Shown: piece by piece, positions 1 through 33,236 of the stretch
Numbering within the stretch: position 1 is the first letter of the stretch
Layout of the letters: each line of letters starts with the position of its first letter
Origin: a virus
DNA: 34,473 nucleotides
Reading direction: 5' to 3' (one strand)
Virus record (IMG/VR): IMGVR_UViG_3300027541_000337
Span: 1 to 34,473 of that record
Notes under the pieces: generated by a model
Database searches by the model: none
Told to the model about the DNA's origin: nothing
The model's input: the letters and a program-made list of their open reading frames with translations, nothing else
Position numbers and translations under genes: made by a program

Positions 1-323
1 GCAAGGCAGGATGTTCTAGCATCGATGCAATATATTATTCTGCTAGCTCACGTAAAGATGATCCGTTTGCAAAACCAAATACTGGAATGTTTAAGAGATG
101 TGAAAAAGAAATTCCAGATATTAAATTTAATCAAGGTTATTATGTAGGCGATAAGATTAAAGATCTTAAAGCAGCAGTTAAGATGGGTTCAAAACCTGTG
201 TTAGTTAGAACAGGTTATGGCCTTGAAACAGAAAAAGAATTAAACAAATTCACTTACAGAGAATTAAAGCGTCGAACTATTATATTTGACGATCTTGCAA
301 GTTTTGTTAACTCGTTACCATGA
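1..323 (+). CDS. gmhB: Partial HAD-family phosphatase, GmhB-like (5' end outside window)
   Basis: The reading frame is open from the first complete codon at base 3, so this is the C-terminal part of a longer protein. Visible are the HAD motif III segment with the Lys-Pro-Asn-Thr-Gly-Met pattern and the motif IV segment V-G-D-K-I-K-D-L. Both fit D-glycero-D-manno-heptose 1,7-bisphosphate 7-phosphatase, which removes the C7 phosphate before ADP-heptose formation. The catalytic DxD motif would lie upstream of the window. The cysteine-rich zinc loop usual in GmhB looks degenerate here: only one Cys precedes the motif. The three following genes belong to the same pathway and the next gene overlaps by 4 nt, which supports the call. 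Another HAD phosphatase, such as a histidinol-phosphatase type, is possible. Confidence 0.75.
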   Translation, partial: KAGCSSIDAIYYSASSRKDDPFAKPNTGMFKRCEKEIPDIKFNQGYYVGDKIKDLKAAVKMGSKPVLVRTGYGLETEKELNKFTYRELKRRTIIFDDLASFVNSLP

Positions 324-718
324 AACAAATAATAGTCAATGGAACTTTTGATATATTGCATAGAGGACACATAGAATTATTAAACTATGCAAAGTCTGTT
401 GGCGATCGTTTGCTAGTTTGTATTGACAGCGATGCTCGTGTAAATTTTCTTAAAGGGCCGGGCCGCCCTATTAACGATCAATGGGATCGTATGCTTATGT
501 TACAGAATTTAAAATCTGTAGATGATGTTAAGATTTTCAATACTGAAGAAGAACTTATCTCAATAATTAAAAGCATTAGGCCTGTAACTATGGTAAAAGG
601 CAGTGACTACCGCAATAGATCGATTGTGGGAGAAGAATACTGCAATGAAATATTATTTTATGAACGAACAAATCACTCAACTTCCAAAACAATACAGGAT
701 ATTATTGATAGGGGATAA
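320..718 (+). CDS. hldC: ADP-heptose synthase cytidylyltransferase-type domain protein (HldC/RfaE2-like)
   Basis: A 132-residue nucleotidyltransferase of the cytidylyltransferase-like fold. The N-terminal N-G-T-F-D-I-L-H-R-G-H segment (residues 7-17) carries the HxGH nucleotide-binding motif. A K-G-S-D-Y segment lies in the second half, and an S-T-S-K-T-I segment near the C-terminus matches the family's ISSTK-like motif. Its expected role is to join heptose 1-phosphate to AMP, giving ADP-heptose for LPS core. It starts in a 4-nt overlap with the phosphatase gene and its 3' end overlaps the kinase gene. In many bacteria this domain is the C-terminal half of HldE; here it is a separate protein and precedes the kinase. 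Glycerol-3-phosphate cytidylyltransferase is a less likely alternative given the neighbours. Confidence 0.82.
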   Translation: MKQIIVNGTFDILHRGHIELLNYAKSVGDRLLVCIDSDARVNFLKGPGRPINDQWDRMLMLQNLKSVDDVKIFNTEEELISIIKSIRPVTMVKGSDYRNRSIVGEEYCNEILFYERTNHSTSKTIQDIIDRG

Positions 719-1421
719 AGGTACAGACATTTACACATACGGAAGTGTGAATAGGATTAGTCCTGAAGCTCCAATACCTGTGTTCAATCCACATGGACAT
801 ACTTACAAAGCGGGTATGGCCGACAACGTTAGAGAAAATTTAGAAGCACTTGGGTGCAATGTAAATTTCCTCTACGGGGAAACTAGCGAAAAAGAAAGAC
901 TTATCGATCGACGCAGTAAACAACAGATAGTTCGAATTGATAGAGATAAGAAAAGTGATCCTATTAGGTTTGATACTCCTATTCCTAATTTTTATGATGC
1001 AATAGTAATCAGCGATTATAACAAAGGAACCATTACCTACGAACTTGTTGAAGAAATTAGAAAAGAATACAAAGGACCTATTTTCATTGACACTAAAAAA
1101 ACAGACCTTGTTAGGTTCGAAGGCTGTTATGTAAAAATAAATGAATTAGAAAAAAGCAAGGCTATTACATTACCAAACAGCAAATGGTTAATTGTTACTC
1201 TTGGCGAAGATGGGGTTCAATATTTGGATAATAAACTAACCCCTAAAAAAGTTCCATTGGTTGATGTAACAGGAGCAGGCGATACTTTCTTAGCTGCATT
1301 GACCTACAAATTTTTAGAAACAGAAAATATGATGCAAGCATTAGAGTTTGCCAACAATGCATCATCAATTACGGTACAGCACGTTGGATGTTATGCACCA
1401 ACATTAGAGGAAATACTATGA
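645..1421 (+). CDS. hldA: D-glycero-D-manno-heptose-7-phosphate kinase (HldA/RfaE1-like, PfkB family)
   Basis: A 258-residue PfkB-family sugar kinase. The N-terminal R-I-S-P-E-A-P-I-P-V segment (about residues 37-46) is typical of RfaE/HldE kinases. G-M-A-D-N-V follows, and the C-terminal V-D-V-T-G-A-G-D-T-F motif puts the catalytic Asp at residue 213. It should phosphorylate heptose 7-phosphate at C1. The frame is open from a GTG at 603, but the ATG at 645 is preferred because GGGAG lies about 10 nt upstream; ATG 660 is also possible. From 645 it overlaps the cytidylyltransferase gene by 74 nt. The protein is shorter than the roughly 320-residue kinase half of HldE. Its stop overlaps the next start (ATGA). 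Confidence 0.82.
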   Translation: MKYYFMNEQITQLPKQYRILLIGDKGTDIYTYGSVNRISPEAPIPVFNPHGHTYKAGMADNVRENLEALGCNVNFLYGETSEKERLIDRRSKQQIVRIDRDKKSDPIRFDTPIPNFYDAIVISDYNKGTITYELVEEIRKEYKGPIFIDTKKTDLVRFEGCYVKINELEKSKAITLPNSKWLIVTLGEDGVQYLDNKLTPKKVPLVDVTGAGDTFLAALTYKFLETENMMQALEFANNASSITVQHVGCYAPTLEEIL

Positions 1422-2287
1422 TTATACTCACAGGAGCAGCAGGCTTTATTGGAAGTTATATTTTAGGTTATCTTAATAAACAAGGAATCGAAGATGTTTA
1501 CCTCTTTGATGATATGCCTTATGGAGATCAATATAAAAATTTAATTGGCAAAAAATATAAAGGACTATACTCTACTAAAGAAATTATAGACAATCTATCT
1601 GCGTTCGATTGTGTTATCCATTGCGGAGCAAATGCAAGTACACTAGAAAGAGATTGGTCTAGCATCTACGAATCCAATATTGTTAGTACAAGAAGATGGC
1701 ACGACCTTTGTAAGCATTACGGAAAAAAGTTTATATTCATGTCAAGCGCAGCAGTATACGGCAACGGAAACGGTCCTGTTAACCACTATGCTTTTAGTAA
1801 ACTTACCTGCGAACAAGAAATAACTAATGGTGTAATACTTCGATTATTCAACGTCTACGGACCAAATGAATATCACAAAGGTCGTATGGCTAGTACGCCC
1901 TTTCATTGGTACCGTCAATTAGAAAACAATTTAATTTTAAAAATATTCAACAACTCAGAAAATTATCTAAGAGATTTTATATATGTCGAAGATGTGGCTA
2001 AAACCGTACATCATTTTATTAACAATTATAAAGAAGGTCTCTACGACCTTGGTACTGGTAATGCTGTAAGTTTTGATCGAGTTGCAGATCTTTGCTTACA
2101 AGAGATTGGATATGGCACAAAAATATCTATTGACATGCCAAATGATCTTAAAGAACAATATCAAGAATACACCTGTGCATCAGTCCAGTTTTTAGAGGAT
2201 GCTGGTGTTGATGTTAAAGGATTCTTTAATATAGATCAAGGTATTAAAGAATATTTTAATTACTTAAAGACTAATCAAATTTATTAA
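1418..2287 (+). CDS. hldD: ADP-L-glycero-D-manno-heptose 6-epimerase (HldD-like)
   Basis: A 289-residue short-chain dehydrogenase/reductase-type epimerase. The Rossmann glycine motif G-A-A-G-F-I-G is at residues 6-12, the S-S-A-A-V-Y-G strand at about 109-115, and the Y124-x3-K128 catalytic pair follows. The segment [15 protein letters not shown] is close to the hallmark of HldD and separates it from generic nucleotide-sugar epimerases. It would convert ADP-D,D-heptose to ADP-L,D-heptose, the LPS inner-core donor. The start at 1418 has GAGGAA just upstream and a 4-nt overlap with the kinase gene. The 3' end overlaps the tail of the convergent 5-aminolevulinate synthase gene by 17 nt. Confidence 0.88.
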
Positions 2288-3473
2288 ACACCGCAGTAAG
2301 AGCAATGACTAAATCTTCAATCATTCCGTCGTCGTGATATGGAGTGGGTGCAAATCGTAATCTTTCAGTACCTACATCAACCGTAGGATAGTTAATTGGT
2401 TGAACATAGATGTTGTGATCATTTAACAGCATATCGCTCATTGCTTTACACTTCTTAGCATCTCCAACAAGCACAGGAATAATATGAGTGGTGGAACATT
2501 CCATAACAGGAATTCCTGCTTTCTTTAATCTATGTCTTAATTTACGAGCACGTTCTTGATGTTTCTCTCGAACTTCGTTATGCTCTTTTAAGTATTTGAT
2601 TGCAGCCAACGCACCGGCACAGGTAACAGGGCTCATAGACGTAGTAAAAATGAACCCTGCAGCCACTGATCGGATAGCATCAATTACATCTGCATCGGCA
2701 GCAATATATCCACCTTGGACACCATACGCTTTACCAAGCGTTCCGTTAACTATGTCAACTCGGTCCTGGAACCCTAACTCTTCTAATTTACCAGCGCCGC
2801 GCTCACCGTATAGCCCTACCGCATGTACTTCGTCAATGTAAGTGATAGCATTGTATTTGTCTGCTAGATTACAAATTCCTCTTATGTCTCCAACATCACC
2901 ATCCATAGAATATACACTTTCAAAAACAATACAAGGAGTATGGCCAGCAAGTGTAGCAGCAACTAATTTGCTTTCTAAATCTTCTAGGTTATTGTGTTCA
3001 AATATTTGTTTAGGAGCTCGACTATGACTCATTCCTATAATTAAACTATTGTGATTTTTACTATCGCTGATAAAATGAATATTAGGCACAATCTTGCTTA
3101 GAGCAATAAGAGTCCATTCGTTGGCCACATATGCAGAGCTGAATAATAAACTGCTCTGTTTATTATGCAGAGTGGCAAGCTCGTGTTCTAAGGCTTTATG
3201 ATAGTGACTAGACCCGCCAATATTGCGAGTGCCTCCTGAACCAGATCCTGTGTGATCTAGAGCGGTGTGCATAGCATCTAGCACAACTTTATGCTGGCCC
3301 ATGCCCAAATAATCGTTTGAACACCAGTTTACTATGTTCTTAATGTTATAAGGCCCGTACCAAATAGCTGTAGGAAATTTTCCAGCTTCTCTAACAATAT
3401 CATTAAAAACACGATATTTTCCTGATGCTTTAAGATCCTGCAATAGTTTTTTAAAAGGTTCTTTGTTTATCAT
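2271..3473 (-). CDS. hemA: 5-aminolevulinate synthase (C4/Shemin pathway)
   Basis: A 400-residue PLP-dependent alpha-oxoamine synthase that condenses succinyl-CoA with glycine to 5-aminolevulinate, the first step of heme synthesis in alphaproteobacteria. Visible are [10 protein letters not shown] (50-59), the glycine-rich [11 protein letters not shown] (77-87), Y-I-D-E-V-H-A-V-G with the PLP-binding Asp (212-220), and G-T-L-G-K-A-Y-G with the Schiff-base Lys at 248, the register of alphaproteobacterial enzymes. S-D-x-x-N-H and [10 protein letters not shown] also fit this enzyme rather than KBL or BioF. Length is normal and no key residue is missing. It is the only large minus-strand gene here and uses a rare TAG stop. 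No Shine-Dalgarno is visible; a late-promoter-like TTAAATA ends 7 nt before the ATG, so the mRNA may be leaderless. Confidence 0.95.
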
Positions 3474-3480
3474 AGTATGC

Positions 3481-3487
3481 TATTTAA
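3481..3487 (-). promoter_or_regulatory. T4-type late promoter core for the 5-aminolevulinate synthase gene
   Basis: On the minus strand the sequence reads TTAAATA, ending 7 nt before the ATG at 3473. If transcription starts about 6 nt downstream, as at T4 late promoters, the mRNA would have almost no leader. It lies 2 nt from a plus-strand late core. Confidence 0.5.
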
Positions 3488-3489
3488 CA

Positions 3490-3496
3490 CTAAATA
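3490..3496 (+). promoter_or_regulatory. T4-type late promoter core (CTAAATA)
   Basis: CTAAATA lies 19 nt before the ATG at 3516, with CGGAG as ribosome-binding site between. CACTA[AA]TAT (3488-3497) can also pair with ATATAGTG (3520-3527) in the coding start, with a two-base bulge. That is a weak version of the hairpin pattern seen at other late promoters here. Confidence 0.6.
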
Positions 3497-3515
3497 TTAG
3501 ATCGGAGATTATAAA

Positions 3516-3749
3516 ATGGATATAGTGCAATTAGATGTGCCGTTGTTTATACGTTTGCTAGAGCTTGCTCGGGAAGAAGTTAAGCAAGATGCAGATCTAC
3601 ATGATATAGCAGAAGCAGTTATTAAATTATCACAAGACGGTCCAGTTACAATGGCAGACTATGACAAAATTGTAGCTTTTATGAACAAACAGGGCGATCC
3701 TGCTAAAGAAGAAATTAATCGCATTAGGCAATTGGGCGGTGTACAATGA
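3516..3749 (+). CDS. Hypothetical small phage protein, first of a virion-region cluster
   Basis: A 77-residue acidic protein predicted to be mostly helical, with no signal peptide, membrane segment or recognised motif. A late promoter core and a CGGAG ribosome-binding site precede it. Its stop overlaps the next start (ATGA), so it is probably translated together with the two small proteins and the larger virion protein that follow. Late expression and position suggest a structural or assembly role, but this is inferred from context only. Confidence 0.7.
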   Translation: MDIVQLDVPLFIRLLELAREEVKQDADLHDIAEAVIKLSQDGPVTMADYDKIVAFMNKQGDPAKEEINRIRQLGGVQ

Positions 3750-4048
3750 AAATTACAGAATTAATAAGAGGCATGCTAGATATCATAGATGGTGTTGATC
3801 AACAACAAAACGACCCAGATCCTTCTGGATACAAAGATACAGATATAAAAAGATTTAAACAAATTGTAGACCTAGCAGATCAAGGTCAGCCAACCGAATA
3901 TTCAAATACTCCGAAAGAAGAATATGCCAGCATTGACTCTGTGACCGTAGATGCTGGTGCTGATAGTTTAAACGGAACTAAACATCCTGCAGATATTAGA
4001 AGTGATAGTGTTGCAATGTATCCAGGAACGGTCTATGGAGCAAAATAA
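3746..4048 (+). CDS. Hypothetical small virion-region protein
   Basis: A 100-residue acidic protein. The start M-K-I-T-E-L-I-R-G-M-L-D-I-I-D resembles the first residues of the protein encoded at 5683 (M-R-A-A-E-F-M-R-A-L-A-D-I-I-D), suggesting a shared N-terminal helix or targeting segment. The rest is polar and rich in Asp, Asn and Ser. It overlaps the preceding gene by 4 nt and the next by 1 nt (TAATG). No function is recognised. Confidence 0.7.
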   Translation: MKITELIRGMLDIIDGVDQQQNDPDPSGYKDTDIKRFKQIVDLADQGQPTEYSNTPKEEYASIDSVTVDAGADSLNGTKHPADIRSDSVAMYPGTVYGAK

Positions 4049-5682: not shown

Positions 5683-5928
5683 ATGAGAGCAGCAGAATTT
5701 ATGAGGGCGTTAGCCGATATTATTGACAAATTAGACGGCGAGTCCGAGAACAATCTGCCAGCTAAAGATCCAAGTAAAGCAGATCCAAATCCAATAATGG
5801 TTCCTCCGTTACAACAGCATCTAGAACTAGACAAAGCAGAAGCCGGAAAAGATAGTCCAATTATCAAAAAGCTCACGCAAGATGAAGTCGAGCATAATCC
5901 GCAAAATCCCATTTTTCGTAGAAATTAA
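5683..5928 (+). CDS. Hypothetical small phage protein
   Basis: An 81-residue protein. The N-terminus M-R-A-A-E-F-M-R-A-L-A-D-I-I-D-K-L-D resembles that of the protein at 3746. The rest is polar and proline-rich (D-P-N-P-I-M-V-P-P-L). It lies between two virion genes behind a late promoter core. No catalytic motif is seen; a small virion or assembly protein is plausible. Confidence 0.65.
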   Translation: MRAAEFMRALADIIDKLDGESENNLPAKDPSKADPNPIMVPPLQQHLELDKAEAGKDSPIIKKLTQDEVEHNPQNPIFRRN

Positions 5929-14552: not shown

Positions 14553-15827
14553 ATGGACCAACGTACACAGAGACAGCAAGAACTACAACAAGATTGGGCC
14601 ACAAACCCAAGATGGAACGGTATTAAACGACCTTACACAGCAGAGGATGTAGTACGCCTACAAGGCAGCAAAATACATCCGAGCCAGTTCGCTGTTGAAC
14701 AAGCAAACAAATTATTTAAACTTCTTCACACAGAAGATTATATTAATACACTTGGTGCCTTAACAGGTATGCAAGCATTACAACAAGTTAAAGCAGGATT
14801 AAAAGCAATTTATCTATCAGGATGGCAGGTAGCAGGCGATGCTAATTTAGCAGGAGAAATGTACCCTGATCAAAGTTTGTATCCAGCTAACTCGGTCCCG
14901 TCAGTAGTTCGTAAGATTAATAATACATTTCGAAGAGCAGACCAGATTGCTTGGAGCGAAGGCAAAGAACAAGATTTTTATGCTCCAATAATTGCCGATG
15001 CCGAAGCTGGGTTTGGCGGAGTGTTAAATGCATTTGAATTAATGAAAGCTATGATCGAAGCCGGTGCAGCCGGTGTACATTTTGAAGATCAGTTAGCCTC
15101 AGTAAAAAAATGCGGACATATGGGAGGAAAAGTACTTGTACCAACAAGAGAAGCTATTAACAAATTGGTTGCTGCTCGTCTTGCTGCTGATGTCATGGGC
15201 GTGCCTACTTTGGTTATTGCCCGTACTGATGCCGAAGCAGGCGATCTTATCACTAGTGATGTTGATGATAATGATCGTCCTTTCCTTACTGGCGAAAGAA
15301 CCGTTGAAGGATTTTATCGTACAAAGAACGGATTTGAACAAGCAGTCTCAAGAGCCGTTGCCTACGCACCCTACGCCGATCTTGTATGGTGTGAAACAGG
15401 GAAACCTGATCTTGATTTCGCAAGAAGATTTGCAGAAGAAGTACACAAACACCATCCAGGTAAAATGTTAGCCTACAACTGCTCGCCATCATTTAACTGG
15501 AAGAAGAACCTAGACGATGCAACCATTGCAAAGTTTCAACGCGAATTAGGTGCGATGGGTTATAAGTTTCAATTTATTACTCTTGCCGGATTCCATAATT
15601 TAAACAACGGTATGTTTGAATTAGCACATGGATATGCCCGAGAAGGAATGACCGCTTTTGTAAAAATGCAAGAGCAAGAATTTGCAAATCAGGCATTAGG
15701 GTTTGAGGCAGTAAAACATCAAAGAGAAGTAGGAACAGGATATTTTGATCGTGTTACTACAACCATCGAAGCAGATGCTTCTACTCAAGCACTAGTTGGT
15801 AGCACAGAGGAAGAACAATTTCATTAA
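14553..15827 (+). CDS. aceA: Isocitrate lyase (glyoxylate shunt)
   Basis: A 424-residue complete enzyme, close to the ~434 residues of E. coli AceA. It cleaves isocitrate to succinate and glyoxylate. The catalytic signature K-K-C-G-H-M-G-G-K is at 185-193, with Cys187 as the general acid/base. S-G-W-Q-V-A-G-D (89-96), the metal-binding A-D-A-E-A-G-F-G-G (148-156), H-F-E-D-Q (176-180), A-R-T-D-A-E-A and N-C-S-P-S-F-N-W are all intact, so it should be active. It has the strongest ribosome-binding site in the region and its own late promoter. The hydrolase and desaturase genes follow directly. Malate synthase is not in the window. Methylisocitrate lyase is unlikely because of length and K-K-C-G-H. 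Confidence 0.96.
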
Positions 15828-15830
15828 TGT

Positions 15831-16415
15831 ATGATAGTATATATTCATGGTGCAAGTGCAACTGCCGCAAGTTTTACGCACATTAGACAATATGTTAGAG
15901 ACACATTTGAAGAACCCGACATCATGCTTGAATATAAGAGTGATGACGGGTTTATGCACAACCTTAATCAAATGAAAGGTCAACTCGACGATGCTGACCG
16001 ATTGTTCTTTATTAGCCATAGTCTAGGTGGTATCTATTCTTTGTATTTGGCTAATCATTATAAAGAAACTACACACGGCGGTGTAAGTTTAAGCACACCC
16101 TACGGTGGAAGTAAAGAAGCAGATTTTGCTCGTTACTTCCTGCCTTTTAATAGGCTAATGAAAGATGTAGGCACCATGAGTAAACCAATGATAGTGGCTA
16201 GAGATTTACCTGCCCCACCAAATTGGACTCAGGTTGTTACCACGGTTGGTCAGAGTCCTTGGATACATGAGCCCAATGACGGGGTAGTTACTCTAGAGAG
16301 TATGCGTTACAGACAAGACTTTGAACAAATTGAAGTCCCTTTAAATCATTATGAAGTTGTTATTAGTGATCAAGTAGTTAACATTATCCTAGACAGGATA
16401 GGGAAATTTTTATGA
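15831..16415 (+). CDS. Alpha/beta hydrolase (lipase/esterase-like)
   Basis: A 194-residue alpha/beta-hydrolase-fold protein. H-G is at 6-7 in the oxyanion loop, the nucleophile elbow S-H-S-L-G-G has Ser64, the candidate acid is Asp150 in N-D-G-V-V, and the candidate base is His173 in L-N-H-Y-E-V. It probably acts on esters such as lipids; the substrate is unknown. There is no signal peptide, so it is cytoplasmic. It starts 3 nt after the isocitrate lyase stop with no clear ribosome-binding site, and its end overlaps the desaturase start by 4 nt, indicating translational coupling and a joint lipid-related role. Confidence 0.85.
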   Translation: MIVYIHGASATAASFTHIRQYVRDTFEEPDIMLEYKSDDGFMHNLNQMKGQLDDADRLFFISHSLGGIYSLYLANHYKETTHGGVSLSTPYGGSKEADFARYFLPFNRLMKDVGTMSKPMIVARDLPAPPNWTQVVTTVGQSPWIHEPNDGVVTLESMRYRQDFEQIEVPLNHYEVVISDQVVNIILDRIGKFL

Positions 16416-17116
16416 TAGAATTTATATATACTCTGGTAATGGTACAAATTACCATTGCCTGTGTTACTCTATATTTGCATAGAGGTCAAACACATCGAGC
16501 AGTACAATTTCATCCTTGGGTTGAACACTTTATGCGTTTTTGGTTATGGTTAACTACAGGAATGATCACAAAAGAATGGGTAGCAATACATAGAAAACAT
16601 CATCAATATGCAGATAAAGAAGGTGATCCTCATAGCCCTTTAATTTTTGGAATTAAAAATATAGTGTTCAACGGAGTACGGTATTACGGAATAGCCAGTA
16701 AAGACAGAGATATGATCGATAAACTTGGCATTGGTACTCCAGATGATTGGATTGAACGCAATGTTTATACTCCCCACCCCCTAGCAGGAATTCTTTTAAT
16801 GTTGGTCATAGACCTTGTTCTTTTTGGTCTTGTTGGGGTAGTAGTGTGGGGAGTTCAAATGATATGGATTCCTTTCTTTGCAGCAGGAGTTGTGAACGGA
16901 ATAGGACATTGGTGGGGGTATCGTAATTATGATGTCAAGGACAATAGCAGAAATATTTTTCCTATTGGATTTTTAATTGGCGGTGAAGAATTACATAACA
17001 ACCACCACGGAGATGGCGCTAACCCTAAACTGAGTCGCAAGTGGTTTGAGTTTGATATAGGTTGGTTGTATATTAAAATTCTTGAAAAATTAAACTTAGC
17101 AAAAATTAGATCATAA
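16412..17116 (+). CDS. Acyl-CoA/acyl-lipid delta-9-type fatty acid desaturase
   Basis: A 234-residue integral membrane di-iron desaturase. The three histidine boxes are H23-R-G-Q-T-H28, H60-R-K-H63-H64 and H195-N-N-H198-H199, with the auxiliary G-H-W-W-G-Y-R-N segment (His166, Asn171). Hydrophobic segments at about 4-20, 125-147 and 149-165 fit the family topology. It would introduce a double bond into membrane fatty acyl chains using oxygen and reduced ferredoxin or a similar donor. It is somewhat short for the stearoyl-CoA desaturase family but has every metal ligand. It is the last gene of the isocitrate lyase-hydrolase unit and is followed by a strong terminator. Confidence 0.93.
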   Translation: MIEFIYTLVMVQITIACVTLYLHRGQTHRAVQFHPWVEHFMRFWLWLTTGMITKEWVAIHRKHHQYADKEGDPHSPLIFGIKNIVFNGVRYYGIASKDRDMIDKLGIGTPDDWIERNVYTPHPLAGILLMLVIDLVLFGLVGVVVWGVQMIWIPFFAAGVVNGIGHWWGYRNYDVKDNSRNIFPIGFLIGGEELHNNHHGDGANPKLSRKWFEFDIGWLYIKILEKLNLAKIRS

Positions 17117-18279: not shown

Positions 18280-18561
18280 ATGAAACTAAGAACTCGTTCA
18301 ATTTTGCAGGAACTAAATGAAGTTGCGTCTCGACGCAATACTGATGCTCTCATCGAAAGCAGAGCCACCAATATTATTAATTCTGCAATCAATTTACTTG
18401 AAAGTATTCATAAGCACTACGACCCTGAACAAGCAGATGAATTAGAGCGTAGGCTTATTAATGCTATTAAAGGGCAAGACCCCGCCAAATTTGTGCGAGG
18501 TGTTAGAAAAATTTCAGAATCAAAAAAACATAAGAATAAGTTAAATGAATCCGAAGAATAA
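18280..18561 (+). CDS. Hypothetical helical protein
   Basis: A 93-residue highly charged helical protein. The N-terminal S-I-L-Q-E-L-N-E-V-A contains L-Q-E and L-N-E sites that loosely fit the prohead protease consensus. The C-terminus is Lys/Glu-rich. The gene overlaps the next by 17 nt. Late-promoter-like sequence and the neighbour's N-terminus suggest a head-associated protein, but there is no domain evidence. Confidence 0.65.
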   Translation: MKLRTRSILQELNEVASRRNTDALIESRATNIINSAINLLESIHKHYDPEQADELERRLINAIKGQDPAKFVRGVRKISESKKHKNKLNESEE

Positions 18562-18871
18562 AGAATTACTTTTATCGTCTATTGCTGAAGCTAAAGGACT
18601 AGCTTATAGTTCTGAGCTAGGTCTTGTTGAAAATGATATCAACATTACTGACGAAAATCAAATTGCCAAACGTTTGCTAGGACAAATGACCACAGACAAA
18701 GATTTAGCCACCGTTGAATCTATTGTTAATGTTATTATTAAACTTCCCAATTACGAAAAGCTAATTGAAGCAGCTCGCAAAGAAATAGAATTGCCCAAGC
18801 AAAACACTATTGAAAGTTTCCAAATAGGAACCGTAGCATGGTTTCGTAGAATGATGGAAGCAATTAGTTAA
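18545..18871 (+). CDS. Hypothetical protein with candidate capsid-targeting N-terminus
   Basis: A 108-residue soluble helical protein. Residues 13-16 (I-A-E|A) match the T4 gp21 cleavage consensus exactly, after a short peptide like those of T4 internal proteins. After cleavage a ~93-residue acidic protein would remain. It starts inside the preceding gene (17-nt overlap). No enzymatic motif is seen. Confidence 0.65.
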   Translation: MNPKNKELLLSSIAEAKGLAYSSELGLVENDINITDENQIAKRLLGQMTTDKDLATVESIVNVIIKLPNYEKLIEAARKEIELPKQNTIESFQIGTVAWFRRMMEAIS

Positions 18872-18907
18872 AAAGACGCAGTAAACTCCTAGTTTTATCC
18901 AAAACGG

Positions 18908-18953
18908 CTAAATATTATGCCGGCCTCTGAGCGAGGTCATTGATTTAAGGAGA
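18908..18953 (+). promoter_or_regulatory. Late promoter, 5'-terminal hairpin and strong ribosome-binding site
   Basis: Late core CTAAATA (18908-18914). About 6 nt later begins a stem GGCCTC (18922-18927)/GAGGTC (18933-18938) with a 5-nt loop. Then comes TTAAGGAG ending at 18953, 7 nt before the ATG at 18961. The hairpin would sit at the mRNA 5' end and may stabilise it. Confidence 0.65.
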
Positions 18954-18960
18954 AAATATC

Positions 18961-19311
18961 ATGGCAGACGTAACATCATTAGCAGTAGGCAGCACAACAT
19001 TTGGTGCGAACTACGAGCAATTAGTAAACACACAAGGTCTTAGCGGTAATCTTATCGTTGCTTCTATCAGCAAAGGTACAGGTTCAGCTACTGAAGCAGA
19101 ACTAGTAGCAGTTCTAAAGAAAATTTGCAACGGTACAGACGTTGGCGCAACAAATGACGCTTTCAACGTTGTTGGTTTCAACGCAGCTACTTTAGGTACA
19201 GACCCAGCATACGTTCTATTGAACGGTACAGGTACACTAGGTACTACAAGCGGCGACTACGGTTCAGATATCACCGTATCTATTGTTGCTACATTCAGCC
19301 TAGCTGTTTAA
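18961..19311 (+). CDS. Predicted abundant small virion protein
   Basis: A 116-residue Gly/Ala/Thr/Val-rich, beta-prone protein without charged clusters, typical of a phage structural or decoration protein. Its unit is complete: late promoter, 5' hairpin, consensus AAGGAG ribosome-binding site and its own strong terminator (19335-19358). This indicates a monocistronic mRNA and high late expression. Codons are less AT-biased than in neighbouring small genes, also consistent with high expression. The specific structural role (decoration, tail tube, other) is not recognised. Confidence 0.75.
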   Translation: MADVTSLAVGSTTFGANYEQLVNTQGLSGNLIVASISKGTGSATEAELVAVLKKICNGTDVGATNDAFNVVGFNAATLGTDPAYVLLNGTGTLGTTSGDYGSDITVSIVATFSLAV

Positions 19312-19334
19312 TATTTCCTAGGGATGGGAAGTGG

Positions 19335-19358
19335 GGGCGGATTTTTTCCGCCCTTTTT
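19335..19358 (+). terminator. Intrinsic terminator after the small virion protein gene
   Basis: GGGCGGA (19335-19341) pairs with TCCGCCC (19347-19353) around a T-rich loop, followed by TTTTT. Confidence 0.85.
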
Positions 19359-19363
19359 CTTTG

Positions 19364-19388
19364 GCCATAAATAGTAGCACATTATGGC
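19364..19388 (+). promoter_or_regulatory. Late promoter within an inverted repeat covering the next start codon
   Basis: GCCATAA (19364-19370) and TTATGGC (19382-19388) form a perfect 7-bp inverted repeat. The 5' arm includes the beginning of the late core ATAAATA (19367-19373), and the 3' arm contains the ATG at 19384. RNA started at the late promoter would lack the 5' arm. Confidence 0.6.
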
Positions 19389-19776
19389 ACGATATAGAAT
19401 TACCACCTTAGTCGATATAACAAGATCTAATCCTCCAAGGACTGAAACGGATAAAATTAAAATTGGACAACAATCTAATTTCAATTCGTTGATCCAGGCT
19501 ATAGGATTAAGAGCCAATATTTCTTGGGTAAAAGATCCTGTGGTTAACAATGGAACGTTACCCGACCCTTGGAAAGGCAAGGCAACTTATTGGATATGGG
19601 AATTTGATACTGAAAGAGTTGACGAGTTTCTTAAAGGAAATAATCCTGTAGGTCTACTACTTGACGATCTACATGGTGTGCCTGTGATAGAAAATTTAAC
19701 AAACACCGCAGATATAGATCCGCCTGCATTTCAAAGTAAAGGCGACAAGTCAAACATTTTTGTTGAAATTATCTAG
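19384..19776 (+). CDS. Hypothetical phage protein (130 residues)
   Basis: A soluble protein with a Trp-rich centre (Y-W-I-W-E-F-D-T-E-R-V-D-E-F-L) and an acidic C-terminal half. No family is recognised. There is no Shine-Dalgarno, and the start codon lies in a hairpin with the late promoter. It ends in TAG, one of only two amber stops among the genes called here, which is notable because the window encodes an amber-reading tRNA. Read-through would add 27 residues before TAA and run into the next gene's start. Confidence 0.7.
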   Translation: MARYRITTLVDITRSNPPRTETDKIKIGQQSNFNSLIQAIGLRANISWVKDPVVNNGTLPDPWKGKATYWIWEFDTERVDEFLKGNNPVGLLLDDLHGVPVIENLTNTADIDPPAFQSKGDKSNIFVEII

Positions 19777-25559: not shown

Positions 25560-27896
25560 ATGACAATTACGGTAATTAAAAGAAGCGGAAATAAAGAACC
25601 ATTAGCAGTTGAAAAATGGCAGGCACAGGTAGCGAAAGTTTGTGCAGGTATAGCCGATGTTAGTCAGAGTATGATTGAGATTAAAGCTCAACTTCATTTT
25701 TACGATAACATCACAACAAAAGAAATTGATGGCATCACACTACGTGCTATTGTTGATCTAATCGATGTAGAACAAAATCCAGATGTAGGACATACTAATT
25801 ATCAATATGTAGCAGGCAAGCAAAGACTTAGCATGTTACGTAAAGATGTATATGGTTCGTATCAACCTCCCCACCTCTATGAAATCATAAAAAAGAATAT
25901 AGGAGTTGGATTATACACTCCAGAACTTCTTGAATGGTATAGTAAAGAAGACTGGGATAAAATGAATGAAATGATCGATCATTCAAAGGACGAAGAATAT
26001 TCTTATGCTGCAATTGAGCAATTAATTGAAAAGTATCTAGTACGTAATCGTGCTACAAAAGAAATTTACGAAACACCCCAAGTGCGTTACATGGTCGCAG
26101 CCGCTACGGTGTTCCACAAAGAAGAGCCTAATACGGCTCGTATGCGATGCATTAAGGAGTATTATAATGCGGCAAGTGATGGACTTTTTACTCTGGCTAC
26201 TCCCGTTCTGGCTGGCCTGGGGACTCCTACTAAGCAATTTTCGAGTTGCGTTCTTATTCGCAGCGATGACGACCTTGATAGTATTTTTGCGTCGGGAGAA
26301 ATGATGGCCAAGTATGCTAGCAAACGTGCTGGCATTGGTTTAGAGATTGGACGACTACGTCCATTGGGCAGTCCCATCCGCGGTGGTGAGATCATGCACA
26401 CAGGCATGATACCATTCTTAAAGAAATGGTTTGGTGATTTGCGTTCATGCAGTCAAGGAGGTATTCGTAATGCTAGTGCGACGGTTTTTTATCCTATTTG
26501 GCATCATCAGTTTGATGATCTCATCGTACTTAAGAACAATCAAGGAACTGAGGAGACTAGGGTAAGGCACATGGACTATGGTGTGGTCTTATCGGCTTTC
26601 TTCTGGAGACGTTTTAAAAATAAAGAAGACATTACTTTCTTTGATCCTAATGAAGTACCAGATTTATACGAAGCATTTTACAAAAATACATCTCAATTTG
26701 AAGAACTATACGTTAAGTATGAAAAACGTAAAGACCTAAGAAAGAAAACAATGTCGGCTGAAGAAGTATTCAAAGCTGGCATCCTTAAGGAGCGTACAGA
26801 TACAGGTCGCATCTATTTGGTGTTTATTGACAATGTTATGAATCAAGGACCATTTGATCCTGAGTACCATACCATTTATCAAAGTAACTTGTGCTGTGAG
26901 ATCTTATTACCAACCCGTCCATTTAAGAGATTAGACGACGAGGAGGGACGCATAGCGTTATGTACACTGGGATCCATTAACTGGGGTGCGTTCCGTAACC
27001 CAGAAGACATGCGTAGAGCATGTCGCATATTACAGCGTAGTCTATGTAATATCTTAGACTACCAAGACTTCTTGTCAATACAAAGTAAACTGAGCAATGA
27101 CGAGATTCAGCCATTGGGCATTGGTGTTACTAACCTAGCCTACTGGCATGCCAAGCGTGGATTGAAGTACGGTGAGAAAGATGCACTAGCAGAGGTAAAG
27201 TCATGGATGGAACATCAAGCCTATTATCTAACCGAAGCTACCGTAGAACTTGCTAAAGAAAGAGGTGCTTGTCAGCATAGCTCACATACCCGATACGGCA
27301 AGGGAGAGTTTCCTTGGGAACATAGAGCAAATGGTGTAAATGATTTAACTGATTTCACTCCAGAACTTGATTGGGAGTCTCTACGTGCAGAAATGAAACA
27401 ACACGGTGTTCGAAACGCCACACTAATGGCTATTGCTCCTGTAGAAAGTTCTAGCGTTGTTATTAACTCAACTAACGGAATTGAAATGCCTATGAGTTTG
27501 ATTAGCACAAAGGAATCAAAAGCAGGATCATTTACACAAGTTGTACCAGATTATCATAAGTTAAAAAACAAATATCAATTAATGTGGGAGCAAACTGATT
27601 GTGCCGGATATCTTAAGACTGCTGCTGTGTTGGCTGCTTATGTTGATCAAAGCATTAGTACTAATACTTTTTATAATCCTGCTCATTTCCCAGACCGCAA
27701 GGTACCTACTACATTGATTGCTAAAAATTTAATGCAAGCACACATGTGGGGAATTAAAACATTCTATTATAGTTTGATTAATAAACAAGGCGCAAAACAC
27801 GAAGACAAAACTCCAGAAGTTCATTACAATGGATTTCATGAAAGAGAAATAGAACCCGATTATGAAGATGAAGACTGCGAGGCCTGCAAACTATGA
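25560..27896 (+). CDS. nrdA: Ribonucleoside-diphosphate reductase, class Ia, alpha subunit
   Basis: A 778-residue full-length catalytic subunit. An ATP-cone allosteric domain is at the N-terminus (I-K-R-S-G-N-K-E-P). The catalytic barrel holds F-S-S-C (first redox Cys), N-L-C-C-E-I (radical Cys with flanking Asn and Glu) and A-L-C-T-L-G-S-I-N (second redox Cys). The C-terminal tail ends C773-E-A-C776-K-L, the pair that takes electrons from glutaredoxin. It reduces ribonucleoside diphosphates with the NrdB subunit encoded downstream. The gene is separated from nrdB by sod, iscU and iscA, an unusual insertion. Its stop overlaps the sod start (ATGA). Confidence 0.97.
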   Translation: MTITVIKRSGNKEPLAVEKWQAQVAKVCAGIADVSQSMIEIKAQLHFYDNITTKEIDGITLRAIVDLIDVEQNPDVGHTNYQYVAGKQRLSMLRKDVYGSYQPPHLYEIIKKNIGVGLYTPELLEWYSKEDWDKMNEMIDHSKDEEYSYAAIEQLIEKYLVRNRATKEIYETPQVRYMVAAATVFHKEEPNTARMRCIKEYYNAASDGLFTLATPVLAGLGTPTKQFSSCVLIRSDDDLDSIFASGEMMAKYASKRAGIGLEIGRLRPLGSPIRGGEIMHTGMIPFLKKWFGDLRSCSQGGIRNASATVFYPIWHHQFDDLIVLKNNQGTEETRVRHMDYGVVLSAFFWRRFKNKEDITFFDPNEVPDLYEAFYKNTSQFEELYVKYEKRKDLRKKTMSAEEVFKAGILKERTDTGRIYLVFIDNVMNQGPFDPEYHTIYQSNLCCEILLPTRPFKRLDDEEGRIALCTLGSINWGAFRNPEDMRRACRILQRSLCNILDYQDFLSIQSKLSNDEIQPLGIGVTNLAYWHAKRGLKYGEKDALAEVKSWMEHQAYYLTEATVELAKERGACQHSSHTRYGKGEFPWEHRANGVNDLTDFTPELDWESLRAEMKQHGVRNATLMAIAPVESSSVVINSTNGIEMPMSLISTKESKAGSFTQVVPDYHKLKNKYQLMWEQTDCAGYLKTAAVLAAYVDQSISTNTFYNPAHFPDRKVPTTLIAKNLMQAHMWGIKTFYYSLINKQGAKHEDKTPEVHYNGFHEREIEPDYEDEDCEACKL

Positions 27897-28450
27897 CATT
27901 TAGTTTTATTCGAAATGTACTCAAAGAAGGTAAAGCTCATAAATTAGAAATTGAAAGTCTTCCTTACGATTCTAATGAACTAAATCCTGCTATATCAAAA
28001 AATACAATCGAATATCACTATGGTAAATTAGCCAAGGCTTATGCTGAAAGATATAATGCCGGTGAAGGTGATCCTGACTTTAACGAAGCTGGAGTTTTCC
28101 TACATAACATTTTGTTTCAACAATATCAAGAATATAATTCTGCAAATAAACCTACAGGAAAATCTTTAGAATTCATTGAAGAGCATTTTTCTACATTTGA
28201 TAAATTTAAAGAAGAATTTTTTAAAATTGCCATGAGCATTCAAGGCAGTGGGTGGGTATACTTAACTAAATCTGGCGAAATTAAAACAATAAAAAATCAC
28301 GAAATAAAAAAAGATATTTTAGTTTTAGTCGATTGGTGGGAACATGCGTGGGCATTAGACTACCAAGCAGACAAGAAAAAATATTTAGAGAACCAATGGA
28401 AAATCATTAACTGGGAGAAAATAAATGGCTTACTCAGACAAGGTTATTGA
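27893..28450 (+). CDS. sodB: Iron/manganese superoxide dismutase
   Basis: A 185-residue Fe/Mn SOD that converts superoxide to oxygen and peroxide. Metal ligands are His42 (I-E-Y-H-Y-G-K), His71 (F-L-H-N), Asp147 and His151 (V-D-W-W-E-H-A-W). Gateway Tyr50 and G-S-G-W are kept. The usual K-H-H after the first ligand is K-L-A, removing a conserved second-sphere His. The position that is Gln in E. coli FeSOD (before V-W-N-H) is Gly, while an Asn-His pair (135-136) lies near where MnSODs place their Gln. Metal preference therefore cannot be predicted. It is coupled to nrdA by an ATGA overlap and overlaps iscU by 26 nt, consistent with protecting the iron enzymes encoded around it. Confidence 0.92.
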   Translation: MTFSFIRNVLKEGKAHKLEIESLPYDSNELNPAISKNTIEYHYGKLAKAYAERYNAGEGDPDFNEAGVFLHNILFQQYQEYNSANKPTGKSLEFIEEHFSTFDKFKEEFFKIAMSIQGSGWVYLTKSGEIKTIKNHEIKKDILVLVDWWEHAWALDYQADKKKYLENQWKIINWEKINGLLRQGY

Positions 28451-28814
28451 TCATTACGAAAATCCACGTAACGTTGGTAGCTTTGATAAAGCTGATCCTA
28501 GCGTAGGTACAGGCATGGTCGGTGCACCTGCTTGTGGTGACGTAATGAAGCTACAAATTAAAGTAGACGAAACCACAGGAATTATACAAGATGCCAAATT
28601 TAAAACGTATGGTTGTGGAAGCGCGATTGCGTCGAGTTCGCTCGTTACTGAGTGGCTCAAAGGCAGAACGCTTGACGAAGCGCAACAGATTAAAAATAGC
28701 GAGATTGCTACTGAGCTTGCCCTTCCCCCTGTTAAGATTCATTGTTCAATACTTGCAGAAGATGCGATCAAAGCGGCCGTAAATGATTACCGTAACCGAC
28801 ACAGCCAAAACTAA
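28425..28814 (+). CDS. iscU: Iron-sulfur cluster assembly scaffold protein IscU
   Basis: A 129-residue NifU_N/IscU scaffold, the same length class as E. coli IscU. Cluster ligands are Cys37 (G-A-P-A-C-G-D), Asp39, Cys64 (Y-G-C-G-S-A) and Cys107 with His106 (K-I-H-C-S). The L-P-P-V-K motif (100-104) that recruits the HscA chaperone is intact, so it could use host IscS and HscA/HscB. GGGAG precedes the ATG. It overlaps the sod end by 26 nt and the iscA start by 32 nt. It provides 2Fe-2S clusters, probably for iron-dependent enzymes during infection. Confidence 0.96.
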   Translation: MAYSDKVIDHYENPRNVGSFDKADPSVGTGMVGAPACGDVMKLQIKVDETTGIIQDAKFKTYGCGSAIASSSLVTEWLKGRTLDEAQQIKNSEIATELALPPVKIHCSILAEDAIKAAVNDYRNRHSQN

Positions 28815-29109
28815 AATCAAACACCTGCTTAAGAATAGAGGCAAAGGTGTGGGAATTCGACTAGCAGTTAAAACTACTGGTTGCAGTGGTTTGGCATATG
28901 TGTTAGAATATGTAGACGAGTATGAAGCAGAAGTTGGCGTTACAAATTTTGCTACAGATGATTTTGTAATATTAGTAGATGCAAAGTCGTTAGTATATCT
29001 AGACGGATTAACTATAGACTGGGTAAAAAATGGATTAAATGAAGGGTTTGATTTTGTCAATCCAAATGAACGTGACCGTTGCGGTTGCGGAGAAAGTTTT
29101 AGAGTATAA
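28783..29109 (+). CDS. iscA: A-type iron-sulfur carrier protein (IscA/HesB family)
   Basis: A 108-residue A-type carrier. The three conserved cysteines are Cys34 (T-T-G-C-S-G), Cys100 and Cys102 (R-C-G-C-G-E-S-F), positioned as in E. coli IscA (35, 99, 101). It accepts a cluster or iron from IscU and passes it to target proteins. It starts inside iscU (32-nt overlap) and ends 2 nt before nrdB, so it is expressed with the RNR genes. ErpA or SufA are alternative names; phage context and size do not separate them. Confidence 0.95.
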   Translation: MITVTDTAKTKIKHLLKNRGKGVGIRLAVKTTGCSGLAYVLEYVDEYEAEVGVTNFATDDFVILVDAKSLVYLDGLTIDWVKNGLNEGFDFVNPNERDRCGCGESFRV

Positions 29110-33160: not shown

Positions 33161-33236
33161 GCGCTAGTAGCCAAGTGGAACGGCAGGAGCCTCTAAAACT
33201 CCAGAAGCGTGAGTTCGATTCTCACCTAGCGCACCA
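33161..33236 (+). tRNA. tRNA with CUA anticodon (amber-reading / suppressor type)
   Basis: A complete 76-nt cloverleaf. The acceptor stem GCGCTAG (33161-33167)/CTAGCGC (33226-33232) is perfect. D stem GCC/GGC has a GTGG-containing loop. Anticodon stem GGAGC/ACTCC has one C-A mismatch at 31-39. The loop C-T-C-T-A-A-A places CTA (33193-33195) after the invariant T33. T stem GTGAG/CTCAC has loop TTCGATT. Discriminator A and encoded CCA end at 33236. The variable loop is 6 nt, one longer than usual. An anticodon CUA reads UAG, normally a stop. The charging amino acid cannot be told from sequence by eye. Confidence 0.85.

Follow-up and report, generated by a model that had tools for sequence, protein, structure and literature searches.

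The DNA analyzed here (34,473 nt of the IMG/VR virus record IMGVR_UViG_3300027541_000337, hereafter the window; linear and probably a fragment) carries a gene for 5-aminolevulinate synthase (ALAS), termed valaS, at positions 2271-3473 on the minus strand. The locus raises the question of how a phage expresses a metabolic gene that faces against the genes around it. We consider it likely that valaS is a phage auxiliary metabolic gene for an active ALAS, expressed late and in near-leaderless form from one half of a two-way T4-type late promoter. The identity of the gene, its intact active site, and the conservation of its start codon, promoter pair, spacing and orientation are supported by the comparisons presented here.

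A viral synthase of alphaproteobacterial descent

The valaS open reading frame begins with ATG, ends with TAG and encodes 400 amino acids. It was found to match the ALAS model TIGR01821 with 571.6 bits (cut-off 338.55) and shares about 55% identity with bacterial ALAS. Among proteins of solved structure, its nearest relatives by sequence are two bacterial ALAS, 7x98 and 2bwn, the latter from Rhodobacter capsulatus. The pyridoxal phosphate (PLP) lysine, K248, is part of the string NGTLGKAYG; its aligned counterpart in the R. capsulatus enzyme is likewise K248. A scan of IMG/VR gave 97 confirmed relatives; the 80 that were retained have identities of 76-88%. In R. capsulatus numbering, residues R21, N54, T83, N85, I86, S137, H142, S189, D214, H217, K248, T278, and R374 are invariant in all 80 viral proteins. 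Judged by sequence, the reading frame is a full-length ALAS, in agreement with a preliminary description of the locus, which had also placed the PLP lysine at 248, and it very probably encodes a working enzyme.

H342 is reported to be part of heme feedback. In 80 of 80 aligned viral ALAS this position holds K, R or Q instead, with K in the window protein, and a cysteine in the C-terminal region is present in only eight of the 80 and absent from the window protein. This loss of the heme site matches the account of viral ALAS given in the main text of Wegner et al. (2024; PMC11480375), where valaS of aquatic phages was published and a viral ALAS was found to complement an E. coli ALA auxotroph and to yield 5-aminolevulinate (5-ALA). 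The phage homolog for which 5-ALA production was demonstrated there is CB_2 (PMC11480375); activity of the window protein is a prediction. The earlier remark that the gene is not wholly new therefore holds. As described in the same main text, valaS is phage-borne, comes from aquatic metagenomes, keeps its active-site residues, has lost the heme-regulatory ones and is related to alphaproteobacterial ALAS at about 55% identity, and in all of this the genes studied here are alike. The window gene lies in phage DNA, groups with phage sequences and lacks the heme-regulatory residues, a comparison made with the description in the paper and not by alignment to its sequences. The published valaS occurs alone or together with hemO and pcyA/X (PMC11480375); hemO was not found in the 34 kb window.

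In a FastTree phylogeny of 100 sequences, the 59 distinct viral proteins included formed a single clade (support 0.96) nested in alphaproteobacterial ALAS, which bears out the viral origin of the gene. The clade adjoins a chromosomal ALAS gene located between hemB-like and glyA-like genes, the identities of these flanks being read from sequence only. Among the cellular relatives searched, none exceeded about 57% identity, and in the isolate phage collection the best matches were at most 35% identical and annotated, where annotated, as KBL or BioF. On this sequence evidence, valaS is descended from an alphaproteobacterial ALAS.

KBL (glycine C-acetyltransferase) and BioF share fold and superfamily with ALAS, and the window protein gives weaker matches to their models, so that an acyltransferase of one of these types had to be considered. 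We regard this as hardly credible and reject it on model scores and tree position. The KBL, BioF and serine palmitoyltransferase models all stayed under their own cut-offs, whereas the TIGR01821 score is well above its own and above those of the sister families. PLP and substrate residues agree with ALAS, and the invariance of T83, I86, R21, and R374 speaks against KBL or BioF. The viral proteins also lie inside ALAS in the tree; grouping with KBL/BioF was the outcome that the preliminary description had named as contrary to its assignment.

Opposed late promoter cores at the start of valaS

The valaS start codon (3471-3473, minus strand) corresponds to an identical methionine in 80 of 80 viral homologs (start offset 0) and agrees with the N-terminus of bacterial ALAS. 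Seven nucleotides ahead of it lies a T4-type late core, TTAAATA (3481-3487, minus strand), assigned from the sequence, the homologs and the T4 rule. An opposed core, CTAAATA (3490-3496, plus strand), is located 19 nt ahead of the ATG of the divergent neighbour, which also has a Shine-Dalgarno (SD)-like stretch, ATCGGAGAT, at approximately 3501-3509 (plus strand). No SD-like motif was seen upstream of the valaS ATG.

We compared 57 distinct valaS upstream regions from IMG/VR with a Markov null of 500 shuffled runs. TAAATA ended 4-8 nt ahead of the ATG in 53 of the 57, mostly at 5, 7 or 8 nt, and an opposed TATTTA was found 1-6 nt beyond the core in 51. The null gave means of 0.96 for the core and 0.09 for the opposed core, with maxima of 5 and 2. 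When the regions were aligned on the core, the top base frequency reached 0.83 within the opposed core and 0.77 just ahead of the core, and was mostly 0.3-0.6 elsewhere. Both the absence of an SD and the back-to-back late promoters had been pointed out in the preliminary description, and both stand. The near-zero leader had been noted as well; the short core spacing is confirmed, and among viral ALAS it is not unusual but the rule.

T4 late promoters carry TATAAATA at -13 to -6 (PMC1524935), that is, transcription starts 6 nt past the core. By this rule valaS transcription would start on the A of the ATG where the spacer is 5 nt, and 2-3 nt ahead of the ATG where it is 7-8 nt, as in the window. 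With spacers of 7-8 nt, ACT directly precedes the ATG in 31 of 36 regions, which places a purine at about +1. Across the family the leader should be 0-3 nt, and the valaS message is probably leaderless or near-leaderless. The two longest valaS records, of 280 and 259 kb, contain a gp55-like late sigma factor, and this match together with the positional peaks of TAAATA identifies the promoters as T4-type late promoters.

From these data we infer where valaS transcription starts, that translation is leaderless, that expression is late and that there is a metabolic benefit. The gene would form a single-gene unit directed against the surrounding phage genes. A gp55-type sigma factor of the phage would direct its late transcription from one of the two opposed cores, with the other core driving the neighbouring operon. 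The adjacency of core and ATG would put the 5' end of the mRNA 0-3 nt before the AUG, so that translation would start on a message with little or no leader and no SD. The product, a PLP-dependent ALAS without the residues reported for heme feedback, would form 5-ALA from glycine and succinyl-CoA, and late expression may maintain the supply of 5-ALA, and hence of heme, once expression of host hemA stops.

Several observations weigh against this proposal. A core at 4-8 nt is absent from four loci (L026, L029, L068, and L070), and in some of the more distant valaS loci (L328, L329, L332, and L334) the cores lie farther from the ATG. A gp55 match was obtained in only two of 20 valaS records searched, most of them fragments, and there was none in the window, itself a fragment. 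The 57 upstream regions share ancestry and hence do not represent 57 independent events, and the background spacings of other genes were obtained with a simple first-ATG gene caller.

Transcription could instead come from a host-type sigma-70 promoter or from readthrough from upstream, giving valaS a normal leader; TAAATA would then be incidental, a by-product of AT-rich DNA and of the late promoter that serves the neighbour. On the minus strand there is a TATAAT-like string around 3508-3513, and the valaS region is AT-rich (the GC content of the window is 39%), which favours a by-product TAAATA. Yet a search of 2000-3800 found no sigma-70-like site on the minus strand, and what the homologs share upstream is the core at fixed spacing, not the TATAAT-like string. 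Shuffled sequence yields about one core on average against the 53 seen, and an SD that could serve a longer valaS leader is absent. We judge this explanation improbable. Even less probable, in our view, is that both cores belong to the neighbour's promoter and that valaS was repeatedly inserted alongside without using it. The valaS-free site L336 is in line with such insertion, since the same neighbour stands there behind a lone forward core of its own. This site lacks the reverse core, however, whereas valaS sites carry it, with fixed spacing to the start codon of valaS, beside several neighbour families, and an equivalent divergent leaderless arrangement is present between two structural genes of pelagiphage HTVC008M. 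Late, near-leaderless expression of valaS from its own half of the promoter pair remains our preferred reading.

Orientation, neighbours and spacing classes in related phages

valaS is opposite to the majority of open reading frames in 73 of 77 loci. Its antisense placement, noted earlier as unusual, is thus real, but it is the rule for viral ALAS. Upstream of valaS the neighbour is transcribed divergently in 68 of 74 loci; downstream, 73 of 75 loci have a convergent gene, whose 3' end usually overlaps that of valaS. Several families are represented among these neighbours. In the window the divergent neighbour (3516-3749, plus strand) encodes 77 amino acids without a match in Pfam or PHROG, and its relatives adjoin valaS in many phages. 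The convergent neighbour (1388-2287, plus strand) overlaps the 3' end of valaS by 17 bp and encodes an NAD-dependent epimerase, probably an HldD-like ADP-heptose epimerase (Pfam Epimerase, 113 bits). It is the last of a row of genes at 87-2287 (plus strand) for a HAD hydrolase, a cytidylyltransferase, a PfkB kinase and the epimerase, which resembles a pathway to ADP-heptose in which HldE is split.

Homing endonuclease-like genes were found next to valaS, on the same strand, in three loci: an HNH/NUMOD4 gene directly upstream (L002:1952-2374), a SegE-like GIY-YIG gene directly upstream (L026:215-775) and the gene of a NUMOD3 protein behind valaS (L074:6253-7074). In L026 the two-way promoter signature is located in front of the endonuclease gene and not of valaS. 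These three cases suggest a route by which the valaS unit could move.

The distance from core to first ATG of the other genes in valaS loci is bimodal, with classes at about 4-8 nt and 17-26 nt; the shorter distances peak at 4-7 nt. About 40 of 717 other genes have a core 4-10 nt from the ATG (41 entries, one of which is valaS itself). An SD-like motif accompanies a fraction of 0.00-0.02 of the short class, in which some valaS genes are counted as other genes owing to a strict label, compared to 0.69 of the long class. In the window, short spacing was found, besides valaS, for the genes at 5683, 5956, and 11756.

The TAAATA core is common to T4 (gp55/gp33/gp45; TATAAATA) and the valaS phages, and the longer-leader class of the latter resembles the T4 spacing. 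Unlike the valaS phages, T4 has no gene of the sampled late region with the core at 4-8 nt, and the same is true of the samples from cyanophage Syn9 and Xanthomonas phage X1. In HTVC008M, by contrast, the core lies exactly 5 nt ahead of 10 genes in about 100 kb, with starts that match the annotation. This phage (L278) also has a divergent structural pair, 18392-18916 (minus strand) and 18943-19440 (plus strand), with opposed late cores near both ATGs, a design like that of valaS. The valaS phages differ from HTVC008M in mixing short and long spacing. valaS is annotated nowhere in the part of HTVC008M covered, for which no dedicated query was made. Neither the short spacing shared with a SAR11 phage nor the closest isolate ribonucleotide reductase (Xanthomonas phage, 59%) settles the host of the window phage.

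A limited literature search on leaderless messages in pelagiphages or from late promoters gave no description of them, the matches checked being gene-finder references or a passing remark. In the main text of PMC11480375 the word "promoter" refers to expression plasmids alone, and there is no mention of orientation, heptose genes, glyoxylate or isocitrate lyase; the kind of gene is already known, and its conserved promoter arrangement and orientation are not mentioned there. Tentatively, and with somewhat less than even confidence, we suggest that in a T4-like aquatic phage lineage including pelagiphages late promoters yield a class of leaderless mRNA, and hence two translation classes. valaS would be a cargo unit on this system, a lone counter-strand gene whose two-way late promoter keeps the interrupted operon running, and the nearby homing endonuclease-like genes could help its movement.

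Metabolic context and implications

According to the preliminary description, the host has to use or acquire the C4 pathway. This does not follow, since glycine and succinyl-CoA are all that the enzyme requires, and PMC11480375 proposes hosts of both the C4 and the C5 type for valaS phages. The window also encodes a full-length isocitrate lyase (14553-15827, plus strand). Its products are succinate and glyoxylate, from which both substrates of ALAS could be supplied. The lyase was found in 15 of 48 valaS records, in two length types of about 410 and 433 amino acids. Among records of at least 40 kb with near-duplicates removed, it was present in about seven of 18 valaS records compared to one of 10 valaS-free relatives, and valaS occurred in only one of 34 other lyase-bearing records. 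The association is not significant and the numbers are too small for a conclusion; it remains a lead.

The TAG stop of valaS had also been listed as unusual. The codon was read correctly and is rare in the window (two of 48 called genes), but it is one of several stops among the homologs. A tRNA with a CUA (amber-reading) anticodon and an encoded CCA is located at 33161-33236 (plus strand; Rfam tRNA, 56.5 bits). Amber recoding was considered and rejected: reading TAG as glutamine leaves the main genes no longer and extends valaS by five residues only, the read-through TAG and four more. Elsewhere on the plus strand (16412-17116 and 27893-29109), Pfam identified a fatty acid desaturase and an Fe/Mn superoxide dismutase, followed by proteins that appear IscU-like and IscA-like when the sequences are judged by eye.

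Although phage ALAS is known, it is mostly unknown how phage metabolic genes are switched on. The promoter pair and its spacing are kept across dozens of contigs with varied neighbours, and this gives a testable rule for the timing and mode of valaS expression. The same pattern suggests that a group of aquatic T4-like phages has leaderless late messages, which the literature searched does not describe. Gene finders that rely on the SD could place the starts of such genes wrongly.
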